Shown here in pieces: positions 18,283 through 23,340 of a DNA stretch of 45,142 nt (its first letter is position 1; every line of letters begins with the position of its first letter). The position numbers and the translations under genes were made by a program. Source of the stretch: an uncultured Pseudomonadota bacterium (GTDB taxonomy: Bacteria; Pseudomonadota; Alphaproteobacteria; Rs-D84). The notes beneath the pieces are model-generated. The model saw only the letters and a program-made list of their open reading frames with translations, ran no database searches and had not been told where the DNA came from. Location of the stretch: the NCBI GenBank assembly GCA_949296475.1, contig CASFOK010000006.1, positions 1 through 45,142 on the forward strand. The letters are read 5' to 3'.

Positions 18283-18310
18283 TTGCAATCCGTATAAAAA
18301 CTTATAAAAT
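18283..18310 (+). promoter_or_regulatory. Promoter of tRNA-Arg
   Basis: TTGCAA (18283-18288), 16-bp spacer, TAAAAT (18305-18310), 11 bp before the tRNA. The layout matches that before tRNA-Gly. Confidence 0.6.
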
Positions 18311-18321
18311 ATAAGACCGTT

Positions 18322-18398
18322 GCGCCCATGGCTCAATTGGATAGAGCATTTGACTACGGATCAAAAGGTTGAGGGTTCGAATCCTTCTGGGCGCGCCA
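18322..18398 (+). tRNA. tRNA-Arg (anticodon ACG)
   Basis: Acceptor GCGCCCA/TGGGCGC, D-arm GGCTCAATTGGATAGAGC, anticodon stem TTTGA/TCAAA with loop CTACGGA (anticodon ACG, wobble A probably edited to inosine), T-arm GAGGGTTCGAATCCTTC, discriminator G and encoded CCA at 18396-18398. Its last 20 bases recur twice downstream. Confidence 0.97.
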
Positions 18399-18405
18399 GA
18401 AATTT

Positions 18406-18430
18406 AAACCGGCTGTATGCCGGTTTTAAT
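18406..18430 (+). terminator. Terminator of tRNA-Arg (repeat unit 1)
   Basis: Stem AAACCGGC/GCCGGTTT (18406-18413 with 18419-18426) followed by a T-rich stretch. Confidence 0.8.
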
Positions 18431-18571
18431 TTTGTTGCAAGCCCAAGGATTTGAACCCGACACAGAGGGTGCGACAATGAGTAGTTAAGCCAAGCTTTTG
18501 CGCAGGCGAAACGTTACGAATGCCCCGCAGGACACAGGCCGAGGGAATCCTTCTGGGCGCGCCAGAAATTC

Positions 18572-18596
18572 AAGCCGGCTGTATGCCGGCTTTAAT
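18572..18596 (+). terminator. Terminator hairpin of repeat unit 2
   Basis: The same stem as in unit 1 but with A-T changed to G-C on both arms (18574 G, 18590 C), a compensatory pair that preserves the hairpin. Confidence 0.75.
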
Positions 18597-18754
18597 TTTG
18601 TTGCAAGACCAAGGATTTGAACCCGACGCAGAGGGTGCGACAATGAGTAGTTAAGCCAAGCTCTTGCGCAGGCGAAACGTTACGAATGCCCCGCAGGACA
18701 CAGTCCGAGGGAATCCTTCTGGGCGCGCCAGAATAAATTTTATATTTCTTTATA

Positions 18755-18784: not shown

Positions 18785-19084
18785 TTAACTTGCGTTTGTA
18801 CAAGGCGGCTCAAATTTATAAGTACCCGTTGAATCTGAACCACTCAACGCATACCATATACAAAAAGCCTTGTCAAAAAATGGGGAAGTAATTTCTTCTG
18901 TACACTGTAATATATCTGTTGTATCTAATAGCCCTATTGCTGTTGTGCCTGATGGACATGCGCCCGATGCCAACCGTATACCTGTAACAGAAGTTAATGT
19001 GTATGGATACGGACAAGTCAATGCCAACGCGCTGGAAAATGGAATTAATGTGACGAATGCAAATATTAATATTATTTTTTTCAT
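18785..19084 (-). CDS. Secreted cysteine-rich protein, gamma type (cassette 1)
   Basis: An unrecognised 99-residue protein with Sec signal peptide (MKKIILIFAFVTLIPFSSALA). The mature part has five cysteines in the contexts LTCPYP, GACPSG, LQCTEE, AFCIWY and PPCTN. The pattern G-x-CP-x-GTT, FCI-x-Y and DSTGTYxF matches the genes at 23023 and, more loosely, 21663. It is the last gene of a minus-strand alpha-beta-gamma cassette. Function unknown; location periplasm or outside is inferred from the signal peptide. Confidence 0.8.
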   Translation of the reverse strand: MKKIILIFAFVTLIPFSSALALTCPYPYTLTSVTGIRLASGACPSGTTAIGLLDTTDILQCTEEITSPFFDKAFCIWYALSGSDSTGTYKFEPPCTNAS

Positions 19085-19099
19085 TTTATTTATCCGTTA

Positions 19100-19507
19100 T
19101 TATCGTTGTAATGTTTTTAATATGTTGTTTTTAAAAGTGGAATTGTTGTAAAACAACTGGGCACAACGTTGCGCACACACAGATTCACACCAATCAAACT
19201 GCCCCCAAGATGTTGACGTCATCCGAACAAAATCGGATATTGCCGGATATATCATTTTACACCAACAATAATAAGATGAACTGGATACCGTTGGATTGGA
19301 TGCCACCCTTGTAGAAGAACTGGAACATACGCCAACACCACGAATTGTTATTCCACTGCATGTAATCGTCCAATCTGGTTGACCGGTCGCAACACTCGGC
19401 GAAGTACATGATGTTGAAGATGTCATTTCCAAACACATTGACACCGCCCAACTGGGTACAGACCATATAAATAAAAACAACATAAATATTAATTTTATTC
19501 CTTTCAT
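19100..19507 (-). CDS. Secreted cysteine-rich protein, beta type (cassette 1)
   Basis: A 135-residue unrecognised protein; the ATG at 19507 (MKGIKLIF) starts a clean signal peptide ending PSWA. The mature chain has nine cysteines: VSMC, TSC, WTITC, RGVGVC, YYCWCKM, then C-x3-C-x3-C (CESVCAQRC). It ends FKNNILKTLQR. The closest relative in the window is 22536-23009, which shares the DWT-x-TC, GVC, YCWCKM, SPAIS-like and terminal FxxxIL features. Second gene of the cassette, 22 bp after the alpha gene and 15 bp before gamma. Confidence 0.82.
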   Translation of the reverse strand: MKGIKLIFMLFLFIWSVPSWAVSMCLEMTSSTSCTSPSVATGQPDWTITCSGITIRGVGVCSSSSTRVASNPTVSSSSYYCWCKMIYPAISDFVRMTSTSWGQFDWCESVCAQRCAQLFYNNSTFKNNILKTLQR

Positions 19508-19529
19508 TTCTTTCACCTGTACGAATTGA

Positions 19530-19937
19530 TTAAAATACATAATATTCTGTAGCACACCTTCGTGGACATTGCGCGGCACAAGTCTTATTATCGCCATAAC
19601 TTTGTACATATTCCCAACCTGTTATTTCTGGTCTGATTGTCTTGCACCAACAATAAATCGTATTTGGGGAATCGCCTAATTTTACCTGACTTGCCGACGT
19701 AAAGCACATACCTATTCCTATAACGCTTATTGGCAAACCAATATAAGCACCGCTAGAATATTGCTGAATTGTTTTGTTCCATATATAATTACTACCAGAA
19801 TATGACTTTACTCTATATAAAGAAGTAGTTTTTTTATTAACGGGGTTTAAACACATTTTTATGGTTGTTGCGGAAAATGCTGGTGATAATGCCGCCATAC
19901 ATATAGTGCTGAACAAAAACAATTTTGTTACTTTCAT
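19530..19937 (-). CDS. Secreted cysteine-rich protein, alpha type (cassette 1)
   Basis: A 135-residue unrecognised protein; start ATG at 19937 (MKVTKLFLF), signal peptide ending PAFS. The mature chain has seven cysteines: IKMC, GIGMC, YCWC and C-x3-C-x3-C preceded by a lysine-threonine (TCAAQCPRRC). It lacks the extra two cysteines of the beta type and stops soon after the last one. It is closest to 22137-22517. First gene of the minus cassette; a G5 run lies 11 bp before the start codon and may act as a Shine-Dalgarno sequence. Confidence 0.8.
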   Translation of the reverse strand: MKVTKLFLFSTICMAALSPAFSATTIKMCLNPVNKKTTSLYRVKSYSGSNYIWNKTIQQYSSGAYIGLPISVIGIGMCFTSASQVKLGDSPNTIYCWCKTIRPEITGWEYVQSYGDNKTCAAQCPRRCATEYYVF

Positions 19938-19985
19938 TGAAGTACTGACCCCCACATATATTTAAGATCTTTATATCGTAACCTT

Positions 19986-20015
19986 ATGATAAAAAAAACA
20001 TACATTTAAAGTCAA
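19986..20015 (-). promoter_or_regulatory. Promoter of cassette 1
   Basis: On the minus strand TTGACT (20010-20015), 18-bp T-rich spacer and TATCAT (19986-19991). The same two hexamers and spacer length occur before cassette 3. Confidence 0.65.
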
Positions 20016-20065
20016 GACATAAAAACATTTTCCAAAACATAAAATTTTTTATATCATGCTTTAAC

Positions 20066-20374
20066 ATGAAGAATTTAACCGACCAAGATATTTTAGAACT
20101 GCCCGGAACGCCATTCCAACGCGATGTATGGTGCGCCTTGGTTAAAATACCGTACGGCGAAACCCGAACGTATCGGCAAGTTGCCGCTATGTCTGGGCAC
20201 CCCAACGCCGTACGCGCAGTCGCAAACGCAATTGCAAAAAATCCCCTGCCCCCGATTATACCTTGCCACAGGGTCATTCGCAGCGACGGCGGTATCGGCG
20301 GATATTCCGCGCCGGGCGGAATAAAGCAAAAAGCCCGCCTGTTACAGCAAGAAAAACAAAGCGCAAAAAAATAA
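20066..20374 (+). CDS. ogt: Methylated-DNA cysteine S-methyltransferase domain protein (Ogt/ATL type)
   Basis: A 102-residue protein consisting only of the C-terminal active-site domain. It has FQRDVWCALVKIPYGETRTY, the helix-turn-helix with NAVRAVANAIAKNP, and the active-site PCHRVI with the acceptor cysteine, then GGIGGYSAPGGIKQKARLL. It should repair O6-alkylguanine by accepting the alkyl group on that Cys. The N-terminal domain of Ada/Ogt proteins is missing, as in some stand-alone members. It lies between the divergent cassettes 1 and 2. TATCAT ends 8 bp before its ATG and no Shine-Dalgarno is seen. Confidence 0.9.
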   Translation: MKNLTDQDILELPGTPFQRDVWCALVKIPYGETRTYRQVAAMSGHPNAVRAVANAIAKNPLPPIIPCHRVIRSDGGIGGYSAPGGIKQKARLLQQEKQSAKK

Positions 20375-20398
20375 AAACGCACCAATTAATTTTTACCG

Positions 20399-20428
20399 TT
20401 GACAACGTTGTCGCAATTAAACTACAAT
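20399..20428 (+). promoter_or_regulatory. Promoter of cassette 2 with overlapping palindrome
   Basis: Consensus TTGACA (20399-20404), 18-bp spacer, TACAAT (20423-20428). A perfect 12-bp palindrome, GACAACGTTGTC (20401-20412), overlaps the -35 and could be an operator. A GGGGAGG ribosome site lies before the ATG at 20522. Confidence 0.7.
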
Positions 20429-20521
20429 AATCATAACAAAAACAACAAAAAGCGATTTGTTTTAATTATATGACTTAAGCAAATCCGCCTTTTTGTCTGA
20501 AAAGGGGAGGAAAAACATCAC

Positions 20522-21103
20522 ATGAAATCATTGACAACATTTGCGTTTACGATATTTGCATGCTTGATTTTGCAACCCGCCTTTTCAGAGACAATAAAAA
20601 TCTGCGTTCCTAATTATAGTCAGTGGACAACAGGTTGGCAAAATTATACTGGTATGGGTATTGATACAAGTTCTTACAAAAACCAATATAGTTGGAGTGC
20701 AGCTGCACAAAGAAAATACGTCGTAACAGGTTTAATTGAAACTATTAATGCCAAGGGCGTCGGATTTTGTTCAACAAAAAGCGGCAGTCCGGGTGGCACA
20801 TCAGCATCATTGCCTGGGTTCAGTGGTTTTGAAAATGCTTATTACTGTTGGTGCCAAATGACATCACCATTGGATTCCCAGTGGGTTTTCTTGAAAGATT
20901 ACAACGATGAATTTACCAGTTTATATACAGAGTTTAGCCAATCTGGCAACCCACAAGTGTGGGTAAATGCTGGTAAAGAAGTATCAGATCAATATCTAAC
21001 CAGTTCTACATTTTGTCAGAAATATTGCGCAAAAGAATGTGCGGATGATTTTATGAAGGGGGGGTCCGTAATACGCGCACCGTTGTTTAATTCTGTTCAG
21101 TAA
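20522..21103 (+). CDS. Secreted cysteine-rich protein, alpha type (cassette 2)
   Basis: At 193 residues the longest of the nine. Signal peptide MKSLTTFAFTIFACLILQPAFS. The mature chain has seven cysteines in the alpha pattern: IKIC, KGVGFC, YYCWCQM and C-x3-C-x3-C (CQKYCAKEC). It differs from the other alpha proteins by an insert of about 30 residues between CWC and the final cysteine group (SLYTEFSQSGNPQVWVNAGK region) and by a C-terminal extension ending APLFNSVQ. Unrecognised family. First gene of the cassette, with a strong promoter and ribosome site. Confidence 0.82.
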   Translation: MKSLTTFAFTIFACLILQPAFSETIKICVPNYSQWTTGWQNYTGMGIDTSSYKNQYSWSAAAQRKYVVTGLIETINAKGVGFCSTKSGSPGGTSASLPGFSGFENAYYCWCQMTSPLDSQWVFLKDYNDEFTSLYTEFSQSGNPQVWVNAGKEVSDQYLTSSTFCQKYCAKECADDFMKGGSVIRAPLFNSVQ

Positions 21104-21128
21104 ACAAAAAATAGTACAGGAATATAAA

Positions 21129-21641
21129 ATGAAAATACTACATTTATCAATTACAGTGTTTGCATCTATGCTTTTGATATATGAATCATACGCAACAACA
21201 TTTGCTTCATCATCAGAGGCGAAAATTTGTTTAACAGATTTCTTTGGAACAACGCAATCCCCCGCCAGTCATTGTACAAATTCCCCCAGTAGCGGACTAA
21301 CCGAAAACACTAATAATCAATGGTCTTTTAACTGTCAACTAAATGGTGATTCATTAGAACTTAAAGGTCTGGCGTTTTGTTCTTCTGATATACCTGCTGG
21401 GGGCACAGTAACAGATAATATAACAAGCGGTGACTTTAATGACGGTGTTTACGAAGCGTCTGGCTGTTGGTGTAAAATGACGTATCCGTTTGCATCGCAA
21501 TGGGTATTTTATGGGCGTATATATTCTGGCAGTGACAGATGTTTTAACAGATGCGCATCTGCTTGCATATCTGCTGTTGCTTGGAACGCGGACAATTATT
21601 CTTTTGCAATGCGCACATTGATGTTTAATAATCAAGAGTGA
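21129..21641 (+). CDS. Secreted cysteine-rich protein, beta type (cassette 2)
   Basis: A 170-residue unrecognised protein with a signal peptide ending about SYA. Nine mature cysteines follow the beta pattern: AKIC, SHC, WSFNC, KGLAFC, SGCWCKM and C-x3-C-x3-C (CFNRCASAC). The C terminus (FAMRTLMFNN) resembles the FxxxxL tails of the other beta proteins. Second gene, 25 bp after alpha. Confidence 0.82.
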   Translation: MKILHLSITVFASMLLIYESYATTFASSSEAKICLTDFFGTTQSPASHCTNSPSSGLTENTNNQWSFNCQLNGDSLELKGLAFCSSDIPAGGTVTDNITSGDFNDGVYEASGCWCKMTYPFASQWVFYGRIYSGSDRCFNRCASACISAVAWNADNYSFAMRTLMFNNQE

Positions 21642-21662
21642 TAAATAACATAGGATATAAAA

Positions 21663-22013
21663 ATGAAAAAATGTATCTGTTACACAATATTCATGTTCGT
21701 CGGTATCATGTCGGCAAACGCGGACCCGTTTATTCCGCCTGCATCGTGCCCCGCAGGAATGCGCCAGATTACAAGACCCTATATCCTTGCAGATACAAGT
21801 TGCGGTACCGGTCAAATGAATGTAAATATTTCTGTTACGTCTTGCTATAATTTTTATACTAATGCAAGCAATACAACCATTAATCCAGCCAGAACGCCAA
21901 CTGTATGCTTTATGTATATTCCCACGAATTTAGAATTCAAAGATGACAAGGGTTACTATATATTTAACAACGGTATTTGCACCGTTGATGGACCAGTACA
22001 ACAACAACCATAA
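21663..22013 (+). CDS. Secreted cysteine-rich protein, gamma type (cassette 2)
   Basis: A 116-residue unrecognised protein with signal peptide ending SANA; the signal itself contains two Cys (MKKCIC). The mature part has five cysteines (ASCPAG, TSCGTG, TSCYNF, TVCFMY, GICTVD), the same number as the other two gamma proteins. The DDKGYYIF segment matches their DSTGTYxF. It is the most divergent gamma copy. Last gene of the cassette; a terminator overlaps its end. Confidence 0.78.
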   Translation: MKKCICYTIFMFVGIMSANADPFIPPASCPAGMRQITRPYILADTSCGTGQMNVNISVTSCYNFYTNASNTTINPARTPTVCFMYIPTNLEFKDDKGYYIFNNGICTVDGPVQQQP

Positions 22014-22038
22014 AAAAGTGCGAATGTCGCACTTTTTT
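22012..22038 (+). terminator. Terminator of cassette 2
   Basis: Stem AAGTGCGA/TCGCACTT with loop ATG, flanked by A6 and T6; it can work on both strands. Confidence 0.9.
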
Positions 22039-22063
22039 ATTATGACAGTTAATATTTTTCGTC

Positions 22064-22093
22064 TTGACTTGAATTACTGTTTTTATTTATCAT
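22064..22093 (+). promoter_or_regulatory. Promoter of cassette 3
   Basis: TTGACT (22064-22069), 18-bp spacer ending in a T-rich stretch, TATCAT (22088-22093), the same architecture as before cassette 1. A G6 run lies 11 bp before the ATG at 22137, again as in cassette 1. Confidence 0.65.
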
Positions 22094-22136
22094 TTAACAT
22101 GAAATATAACCATTATATTGGGGGGCATTATATAAA

Positions 22137-22517
22137 ATGAAATTAAAAACATTTTCTTGTTTCTTGTTTTGTCTGATACTGAGCGCCCCCGCATTTGCAG
22201 AAATCACACGATGCATAAATCCGTTTTCCAATCGTGAAATGTATACTAAAAATACAGATTCGTTGACAGCGCCGAGACGATATATGTGGAGTCAAATTGT
22301 ACAGCACGGCTCATGGACAACCAATATACAAGGTATCAGCATTTGTTCTACATCAAGTACAACTGTAGAGGTTCCAATAAACGCAACACCAGCAAAATAT
22401 TGTTGGTGCAGAAAAATAACACCACGGGTAGGCAACTGGATATATTCAACAACTAGTTTTGACGACACAGCAAGTTGTTTCAGCGGTTGCGCTGGGACAT
22501 GCCGTGAATCTATGTAA
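22137..22517 (+). CDS. Secreted cysteine-rich protein, alpha type (cassette 3)
   Basis: A 126-residue unrecognised protein; signal peptide MKLKTFSCFLFCLILSAPAFA. Seven mature cysteines: ITRC, QGISIC, YCWCRK and C-x3-C-x3-C (CFSGCAGTC), ending only four residues after the last Cys. Like 19530-19937 it lacks the C-terminal tail of the beta type. First gene of the cassette. Confidence 0.8.
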   Translation: MKLKTFSCFLFCLILSAPAFAEITRCINPFSNREMYTKNTDSLTAPRRYMWSQIVQHGSWTTNIQGISICSTSSTTVEVPINATPAKYCWCRKITPRVGNWIYSTTSFDDTASCFSGCAGTCRESM

Positions 22518-22535
22518 AAATACAGGAATACAGTT

Positions 22536-23009
22536 ATGAAAATGTCAAAATTTATGTTCATACTATTTATGGTCGGCGCATATACTGACCCGGCGTCCGC
22601 GGTTTCTGTATGCGCAAGGGTGACAACCGACACAAACACCACATGCACCAGTCATACACCAACCGGTACAACTTCTACAACACCTGATTGGACTGTAACA
22701 TGTACAAATACAACCAATAACACAACAGATACAATAACTGTAACAGGTATTGGCGTATGCTCTAATCAAACAACCTTGTTTAATGACGCTATTTCGTATC
22801 CTGCTGTACAAAACCCCGATGAGACGCCTATAACGTCTTATTGTTGGTGTAAAATGTTGTCACCTGCCATATCAAAATTTGTACGTATCACGAATAATGC
22901 ATGGGACCAATATGACTACTGCTATCCACGTTGCGCCAAAGTGTGCGCAGAAACGTTTCAGAATGATACCGGATTTCGCGCAAGTATATTGAATAATTTA
23001 TCACTATAA
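22536..23009 (+). CDS. Secreted cysteine-rich protein, beta type (cassette 3)
   Basis: A 157-residue unrecognised protein; signal peptide MKMSKFMFILFMVGAYTDPASA. Nine mature cysteines: VSVC, NTTC, WTVTC, TGIGVC, YCWCKM and C-x3-C-x3-C (CYPRCAKVC). The linker between the second and fourth Cys is threonine-rich (TNTTNNTTDTITVTG) and longer than in cassette 1. It ends FRASILNNLSL. Second gene, 18 bp after alpha. Confidence 0.82.
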   Translation: MKMSKFMFILFMVGAYTDPASAVSVCARVTTDTNTTCTSHTPTGTTSTTPDWTVTCTNTTNNTTDTITVTGIGVCSNQTTLFNDAISYPAVQNPDETPITSYCWCKMLSPAISKFVRITNNAWDQYDYCYPRCAKVCAETFQNDTGFRASILNNLSL

Positions 23010-23022
23010 TAAAAGGCACAAT

Positions 23023-23340
23023 ATGAAGAAAATTTTTTTCTTGTTACTGATTTTACCAACCAGCGCCCTTGGGATTGGACCGCAAAGTTGTACCGAGGCA
23101 ACTGGCACACTCAATTTTGACCAAGTAACAGAGCCGGGGTTAATCATAACAAATGGCAGTTGCCCAACCGGAACAACAACAGTACTTGAAACAACGGACA
23201 ATATCAACTGCCCGTCTGCTGTAAGTTCTCTATTATTTACAAAAACATTTTGTATCTTGTACGAACCGGCAAATACGAATATCACAGATTCTACTGGGAC
23301 CTATGAATACGTAAATGAAGTGTGCCCGTTTGCTGAATAA
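23023..23340 (+). CDS. Secreted cysteine-rich protein, gamma type (cassette 3)
   Basis: A 105-residue unrecognised protein; signal peptide MKKIFFLLLILPTSALG. Five mature cysteines: QSC, GSCPTG, INCPSA, TFCILY, EVCPFA. It shares G-x-CP-x-GTT, a FC-I-x-Y element and DSTGTYEY with the cassette 1 gamma protein. Last gene, 13 bp after beta. Confidence 0.8.
   Translation: MKKIFFLLLILPTSALGIGPQSCTEATGTLNFDQVTEPGLIITNGSCPTGTTTVLETTDNINCPSAVSSLLFTKTFCILYEPANTNITDSTGTYEYVNEVCPFAE

Follow-up and report, generated by a model that had tools for sequence, protein, structure and literature searches.

Two tandem units behind a tRNA-Arg gene of an Rs-D84 alphaproteobacterium are probable members of a family of RtT-like tRNA-tail cassettes

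The two units that follow the tRNA-Arg(ACG) gene on contig CASFOK010000006.1 of an uncultured alphaproteobacterium of the Rs-D84 lineage are best explained as RtT-like tRNA-tail cassettes, a kind of short non-coding module that occupies the 3' end of a tRNA transcription unit, and the probability of this reading is put at roughly 0.7. The whole stretch of DNA that was analysed, 45,142 nucleotides, is referred to below as the window. Sequence comparison establishes the anatomy of the units, their match to the host tRNA, covariation in their core, variation in their copy number, their spread to many tRNAs and a plan held in common with the RtT repeats of E. coli. The family is real, sizeable and structured, and it is of the RtT kind.

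The host tRNA gene is intact, and its 3' end, a 23-nt sequence made up of the last 20 nt of the tRNA and the next three (GAATCCTTCTGGGCGCGCCAGAA), occurs three times without change at spacings of 166 and 166 bp, the only 23-mer seen more than twice in the whole window (Table 1). The two units are 96% identical and differ by seven substitutions with no indel (18405, 18408, 18424, 18442, 18462, 18497 and 18538 in first-unit coordinates), of which 18408 A>G and 18424 T>C are mutually compensatory in the stem of the terminator. Terminator-like hairpins follow the first and second copies of the tRNA end. The tRNA ends, their spacing, the seven substitutions and the terminator in each unit had been described in an earlier note on this DNA and are borne out here; the note contained neither the likeness to E. 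coli RtT nor the inverted strand of the tRNA acceptor and T-arm that each unit carries (GCCCAAGGATTTGAACCC in unit 1, one base off in unit 2). Promoter-like matches on the + strand are absent from the inside of the units, the sole one lying before the tRNA. The possibility that the unit is coding was rejected, as 166 is no multiple of 3 and the ATG of the core is not conserved.

Table 1. Positions in the window of the tRNA-Arg(ACG) gene, its two units and their parts.
Feature	Positions	Strand	Basis or remark
Promoter-like site of tRNA-Arg	18283-18310	+	9/12 consensus matches; consensus only
tRNA-Arg(ACG) gene, intact, host of the array	18322-18398	+	
Unit 1 (166 bp)	18379-18544	+	
Unit 2 (166 bp, 96% identical)	18545-18710	+	
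tRNA 3' end, copy 1, in and just past the tRNA gene	18379-18401	+	
tRNA 3' end, copy 2; 3' strand of closing stem P1 of unit 1	18545-18567	+	
tRNA 3' end, copy 3; 3' strand of closing stem P1 of unit 2	18711-18733	+	
Intrinsic terminator 1 (hairpin 18406-18426 and T tract)	18406-18436	+	
Intrinsic terminator 2 (hairpin 18572-18592); compensatory A-T to G-C pair relative to terminator 1	18572-18602	+	
Inverted acceptor/T-arm copy, unit 1; 5' strand of P1 and P2	18441-18458	+	sequence, family test, fold
Inverted acceptor/T-arm copy, unit 2	18607-18624	+	sequence
Type A core, unit 1, hairpins P3 and P4	18474-18546	+	covariance model R1, E=5.3e-20; core belongs to the model's own alignment
Type A core, unit 2	18640-18712	+	covariance model R1, E=9.2e-21; core belongs to the model's own alignment

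Read along the tRNA strand, a unit runs from the tRNA end (T-loop to CCA) through a terminator, the inverted acceptor/T-arm copy, the motif GGTTCGA and the core to the next tRNA end, with CCA-to-CCA lengths of 154 to 189; the terminator is present in most Enterousia units. In the 3' flanks that were read, each unit repeats the 3' end of its own tRNA, and for 91% of 56 first units the direct copy is scored higher by that tRNA than by all tRNAs of other isotypes. The inverted copy, though weaker than the direct one, is likewise host-specific, with a score of 9.09 against the own tRNA compared to 6.39 against others and, in a permutation test, an observed mean of 7.98 compared to 6.15 (sd 0.16) after permutation. 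Several core types (A to D) are visible in the genome of the window alone.

The predicted fold of the tRNA-sense strand is a four-way junction closed by a tRNA-derived stem, and in the window unit all four helices form in prediction, P1 between the inverted copy and the tRNA end, followed by P2, P3 and P4. The cleanest four-way junction is found in the units behind tRNA-Lys(TTT). Across 42 units, P1 contains 9.1 pairs with the unit's own inverted copy and 5.4 with a swapped one. An alignment of 44 distinct A cores, for which the structure was named by hand, has 92.8% of its cells paired, a share that is biased upward because the structure was drawn from the same sequences, and 12 of its 19 pairs change on both sides; such double changes do not arise from drawing the structure on those sequences alone. 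The covariation score is 0.413, compared to 0.133 for shuffled and at most 0.098 for slid alignments, the shuffles keeping base composition and not phylogeny. Stability of the window unit does not exceed that of dinucleotide shuffles (z 0.08). In helix P3 of 104 cores, G.T wobbles are more frequent than A.C mismatches, at 29 compared to 4 (15 compared to 4 among distinct stems), and therefore the tRNA-sense strand is the one that folds. On these sequence grounds the asymmetry could reflect either RNA or folded single-stranded DNA, RNA being the simpler choice.

Related units are widespread in the genus, and across the family of this gut bacterium they number in the hundreds, at the majority of tRNA kinds. 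The window units match four other places in their own genome, where by eye about 11 of 43 tRNAs carry units (Arg-ACG, Arg-TCT, Gln-TTG, Gln-CTG, Tyr, His, Gly-CCC, Val-TAC, Glu-CTC, Met and Leu-CAA, with those at Gly-CCC and Met running off the contig end). A first search found matches in 33 of 35 genomes of the genus, this one included, and in one of 24 others. When named genomes were scanned by pattern, the A core turned up in gut Alphaproteobacteria, Candidatus Enterousia among them, and the matches in unrelated bacteria look like chance; a phage origin was rejected, as three pattern matches on viral contigs have no tRNA in the vicinity and show no resemblance around the motif. Enterousia belongs to the order Rs-D84 and has reduced genomes of about 1 Mb or less (PMC12306168). 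With a covariance model of the core, matches were obtained in 107 of 142 genomes of the order. By kinship, as read from the result table, Enterousia accounts for 98 of these, out of 105 Enterousia genomes and at 1 to 21 copies each, the remainder of its family for eight, and the order outside that family for one. The A core is absent from the remaining seven Enterousia genomes, one of which is 100% complete. Six other genomes, searched more finely, yielded 96 cores, with as many as 22 in a single genome. Of these cores, 60 follow a tRNA on its own strand at a distance of no more than 700 nt, compared to 1.6 expected, and these stand behind 24 tRNA species; 46 are within 130 nt, and about a third of all cores are away from tRNAs. 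These counts rest on the loci searched. The literature search found no papers on Enterousia repeats, and RtT appeared there only in passing.

Copy number at tRNA-Arg(ACG) varies from 0 to 3 between species of the genus. At the orthologous locus, recognised by thymidine kinase upstream, no unit is present in L021, L029 and L032, one in L007 and two in the window; L024 holds a remnant and L023 another core type. In the sister species (L116) a single unit replaces the pair of the window, and 178 bp of it match unit 1 of the window at 99.4%, compared to about 86-90% for the downstream flank (90% over 6.4 kb). Arrays can also be mixed, since the L009 array alternates between type C and type A cassettes, each flanked by the same tRNA end. 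The earlier note had allowed that the repeats might be a slippage product, an account in which duplication at the tRNA end, by slippage or unequal crossing-over, leaves functionless copies. Identical tandem units, such as the three in L103, and the closeness of the window pair would agree with it, but it leaves unexplained the inverted copy, the covariation and a core common to 24 tRNAs, and it is already contradicted by related cores at unrelated tRNAs; we regard it as very improbable. The note's other suggestions, a minimal mobile cassette or a small RNA, both fit better than slippage and are partly supported overall, given related units at at least 24 tRNA species, the mixed array, the changing copy number and the strong covariation. 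Two copies fixed in all relatives with no homologue at another tRNA, which the note named as the outcome that would speak against its proposal, is not the picture obtained.

Several other arrangements were seen in these arrays. Behind tRNA-Leu(CAA) on contig C14 of the genome of the window (L072), the core alone is repeated in tandem within one cassette, and in L022 the core lies in inverted orientation inside the tRNA-Pro copy, with L128 and L149 looking alike. Foreign-looking sequence is joined to the last bases of tRNA-Arg before the unit in L116 (1-1637), in L009 and L014 (1-127), in L011 and in L025; such junctions are the kind expected after integration of a larger element at the tRNA. 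The first 127 bases are the same in L009 and L014, which come from two genomes, and lie at a contig end.

Elements that integrate at tRNAs regenerate the tRNA 3' end, and integron cassettes form arrays. The earlier note had pointed to att-site behaviour, and a fuller version of that idea is a non-autonomous element that spreads by site-specific recombination at tRNA 3' ends with a recombinase supplied in trans, acting either on an att-like site or on a folded single strand like integron attC. Each cassette is bounded by direct repeats of the tRNA end, the L009 array mixes cassettes, these tRNA ends seem to serve larger integrating elements as well (L025, L116), near-identical cores occur at several places in G028, and the T-loop motif GTTCG stands at the left junction of 49 of 60 tRNA-linked copies and of 15 of 36 others. 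Against this, many unit-bearing genomes (for instance G015, G022 and G028) contain only two PF00589 genes, whose size and number suggest XerC and XerD. A dedicated recombinase is thus missing from many genomes with units, and a tyrosine-integrase element or integron cassette was rejected on that ground; the att mechanism is similarly unsupported, the unit itself encoding nothing. Furthermore, an att site would need to be remade for each of the 24 tRNA species, and to our knowledge an inverted copy is part of no att site. A Y1 transposase was found in only one of 39 genomes, which likewise weighs against a trans-acting recombinase and led to the rejection of a RAYT/REP origin. Recombination in trans is thus considered an unlikely, if serious, alternative to the RtT-like cassette. 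Hammerhead ribozymes and integron attC sites, which the core motif had brought to mind, were dropped, as the required core is lacking by eye.

As a further route, tRNA read-through transcripts could be retroposed by a retron or an RT. Identity along the direct repeat stays at about 75-85% through the terminator and falls off beyond about 35-40 nt past the CCA, close to the terminator and so to the expected 3' end of a transcript, which favours such a route. RVT_1 was matched in 13 of 21 tested genomes, but seven of the 21, the genome of the window included, have units and no RVT_1 match; moreover, the RT genes that were read (two in detail) look like diversity-generating retroelements, and a core is near only three of 12 RT loci, the other nine having none. 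Retroposition is therefore judged improbable, and a retron was rejected because the unit is not placed next to a reverse transcriptase gene. Overall, no integrase, RAYT transposase or reverse transcriptase was found to track with the units. As a separate observation, positions 18785-23340 of the window encode clustered small proteins that are rich in cysteine, carry a CWCK motif and are probably secreted, and similar proteins adjoin RT genes resembling diversity-generating retroelements in G117 and G106.

The closest known system is RtT. For decades the repeats of E. coli tyrT have been familiar as a peculiarity of a single operon. There the tRNA-Tyr end recurs at +178, +356 and +534, and the repeats are separated by an inverted tRNA copy TGCGGGGAAGGATGAGAAGC, then AAGGTTCGA, hairpins and GAGTAATCC..CCA, the inverted copy scoring 10.5 compared to a shuffled mean of 6.0. 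Both systems thus have tandem units of about 160-180 bp behind a tRNA with the tRNA 3' end in each, and in both an inverted acceptor/T-arm copy is followed by GGTTCGA, a hairpin core and a closing stem of tRNA ends with a 3' CCA. In the Rfam consensus of RtT (RF00391) the closing stem, formed by an inverted and a direct copy of the tRNA end, is the same as in the Enterousia units, and the 3' end is CCACCA; the Enterousia units likewise lie behind a tRNA gene and each end in the 3' end of that tRNA with CCA. RF00391 was matched in 46 of 398 Pseudomonadota genomes, and of 30 loci read, 29 adjoin a tRNA for Tyr, Ser, Gln, Lys or Pro or lie up to 1 kb on its 3' side, with the unit plan seen in Enterousia; two of the matches begin before the tRNA end as placed by ARAGORN. 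The systems differ in that Enterousia cores have other sequences, occur in several types and at nearly all kinds of tRNA, reach 22 copies per genome and mostly come with a terminator per unit. At the gathering score (45 bits) RF00391 has no match in the window, the Enterousia loci, G000 or G063, with four matches in the E. coli control; an Rfam scan of the window, at gathering and up to E 10, gave only tRNAs above cut-off, and 11 further loci did not reach the RtT cut-off. Because this cut-off is missed, the units are named RtT-like and are not filed as RF00391. The units look like RtT and, by analogy, probably work like RtT; shared ancestry and convergence would each account for the likeness.

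The inverted T-arm was also compared between the two groups. Among 62 Enterousia units with a recognisable motif it reads GA in 30, TT in 17 (the window unit among them) and TC, the perfect complement, in one, and among 29 RtT matches it reads GA in 27 and TC in none. A tandem GA motif has been noted in RtT (PMC7657543), and the copy number of rtT varies between Salmonella genomes as a 175 bp VNTR (PMC2658671). The GA motif that occurs in both classes, the covariation of the core and the annotation of E. coli RtT as the ncRNA rttR would all suit a small RNA or a cis-regulatory RNA of tRNA operons that benefits the host, is kept by selection and spreads by ordinary duplication. However, complete absence of the A core from some Enterousia genomes, gain and loss of copies at orthologous loci and the terminator ahead of each unit speak against it, and we consider this explanation doubtful. 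A terminator before every unit together with the lack of an internal promoter-like site is odd for an RNA gene, and since some genomes lack the cassettes these appear dispensable, being either largely selfish or of conditional use.

Other dispersed repeats invite comparison with the RtT-like cassettes. REP/BIME and the Rickettsia palindromic elements are short, folded, non-coding and dispersed, as the units are, and they spread in trans or by an obscure mechanism; we know of no tie of theirs to tRNA ends and of no stem in them rebuilt from host sequence. REP elements differ further in their RAYT, the Y1 transposase that 38 of the 39 genomes here lack. Compared to tRNA-integrating elements and integron cassettes, the units have no gene and no tracking integrase, and their copy of the target is also inverted.

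Copies away from tRNAs give some indication of how the closing stem may arise. At G106 C9:38746 the core stands behind the apparent end of a protein gene, in the order CATTCCGTTTTAA, ACGGAATG, core, CATTCCGTTCTAA and terminator. In G028, near-identical cores occupy several intergenic places, and the same stretches contain core-less hairpins whose arms are different but complementary. For cores not linked to tRNAs, flank complementarity is 7.7 with the own flank compared to 6.4 with swapped ones, which suggests that the arms are made from local sequence. Template switching at hairpins is a known route to such arms (PMC8794818). In addition, three loci from three genomes (L094, L115, L124) have a type A core with GTTCGA at its left and no tRNA directly upstream, their flanks being partly alike. 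A second dispersed repeat, AATACGAGAATACACAATTAGAAAAATC..., occurs around 7504 on the reverse strand of L094, in L022 and at loci of G002 and G028; it forms an inverted pair in L094, often directly follows the GAGCGA of the core, and probably represents another palindromic element family of Enterousia.

The RtT-like cassette would, on present evidence, work as follows. The + strand would act as RNA after read-through of the tRNA terminator, and the RNA of the unit may fold as a four-way junction that has a CCA end and an acceptor helix like that of a tRNA, and may be processed together with the tRNA. Arrays would expand and contract by recombination between the repeated tRNA ends, and nothing beyond such recombination is needed for expansion. 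Where a core comes to lie behind a new gene, its closing stem would be rebuilt from local sequence, most likely by template switching at the hairpin during replication. A broader proposal is offered tentatively, namely that RtT and the Enterousia units are two branches of a class of gene-free folded cassettes across Proteobacteria that settles at the 3' ends of transcription units, preferably those of tRNAs and occasionally those of protein genes, where the sequence of the host gene supplies the closing stem.

The same plan at at least 24 tRNA species in one genus, and at Tyr, Ser, Gln, Lys and Pro tRNAs elsewhere in Proteobacteria, points to such a general class, and the function and spread of RtT become testable by comparison. 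The units are a natural case of host-matched stems around a conserved core and so bear on the origin of hairpins by template switching (PMC8794818). In Enterousia itself, the cassettes persist in genomes that shed most other DNA (PMC12306168).
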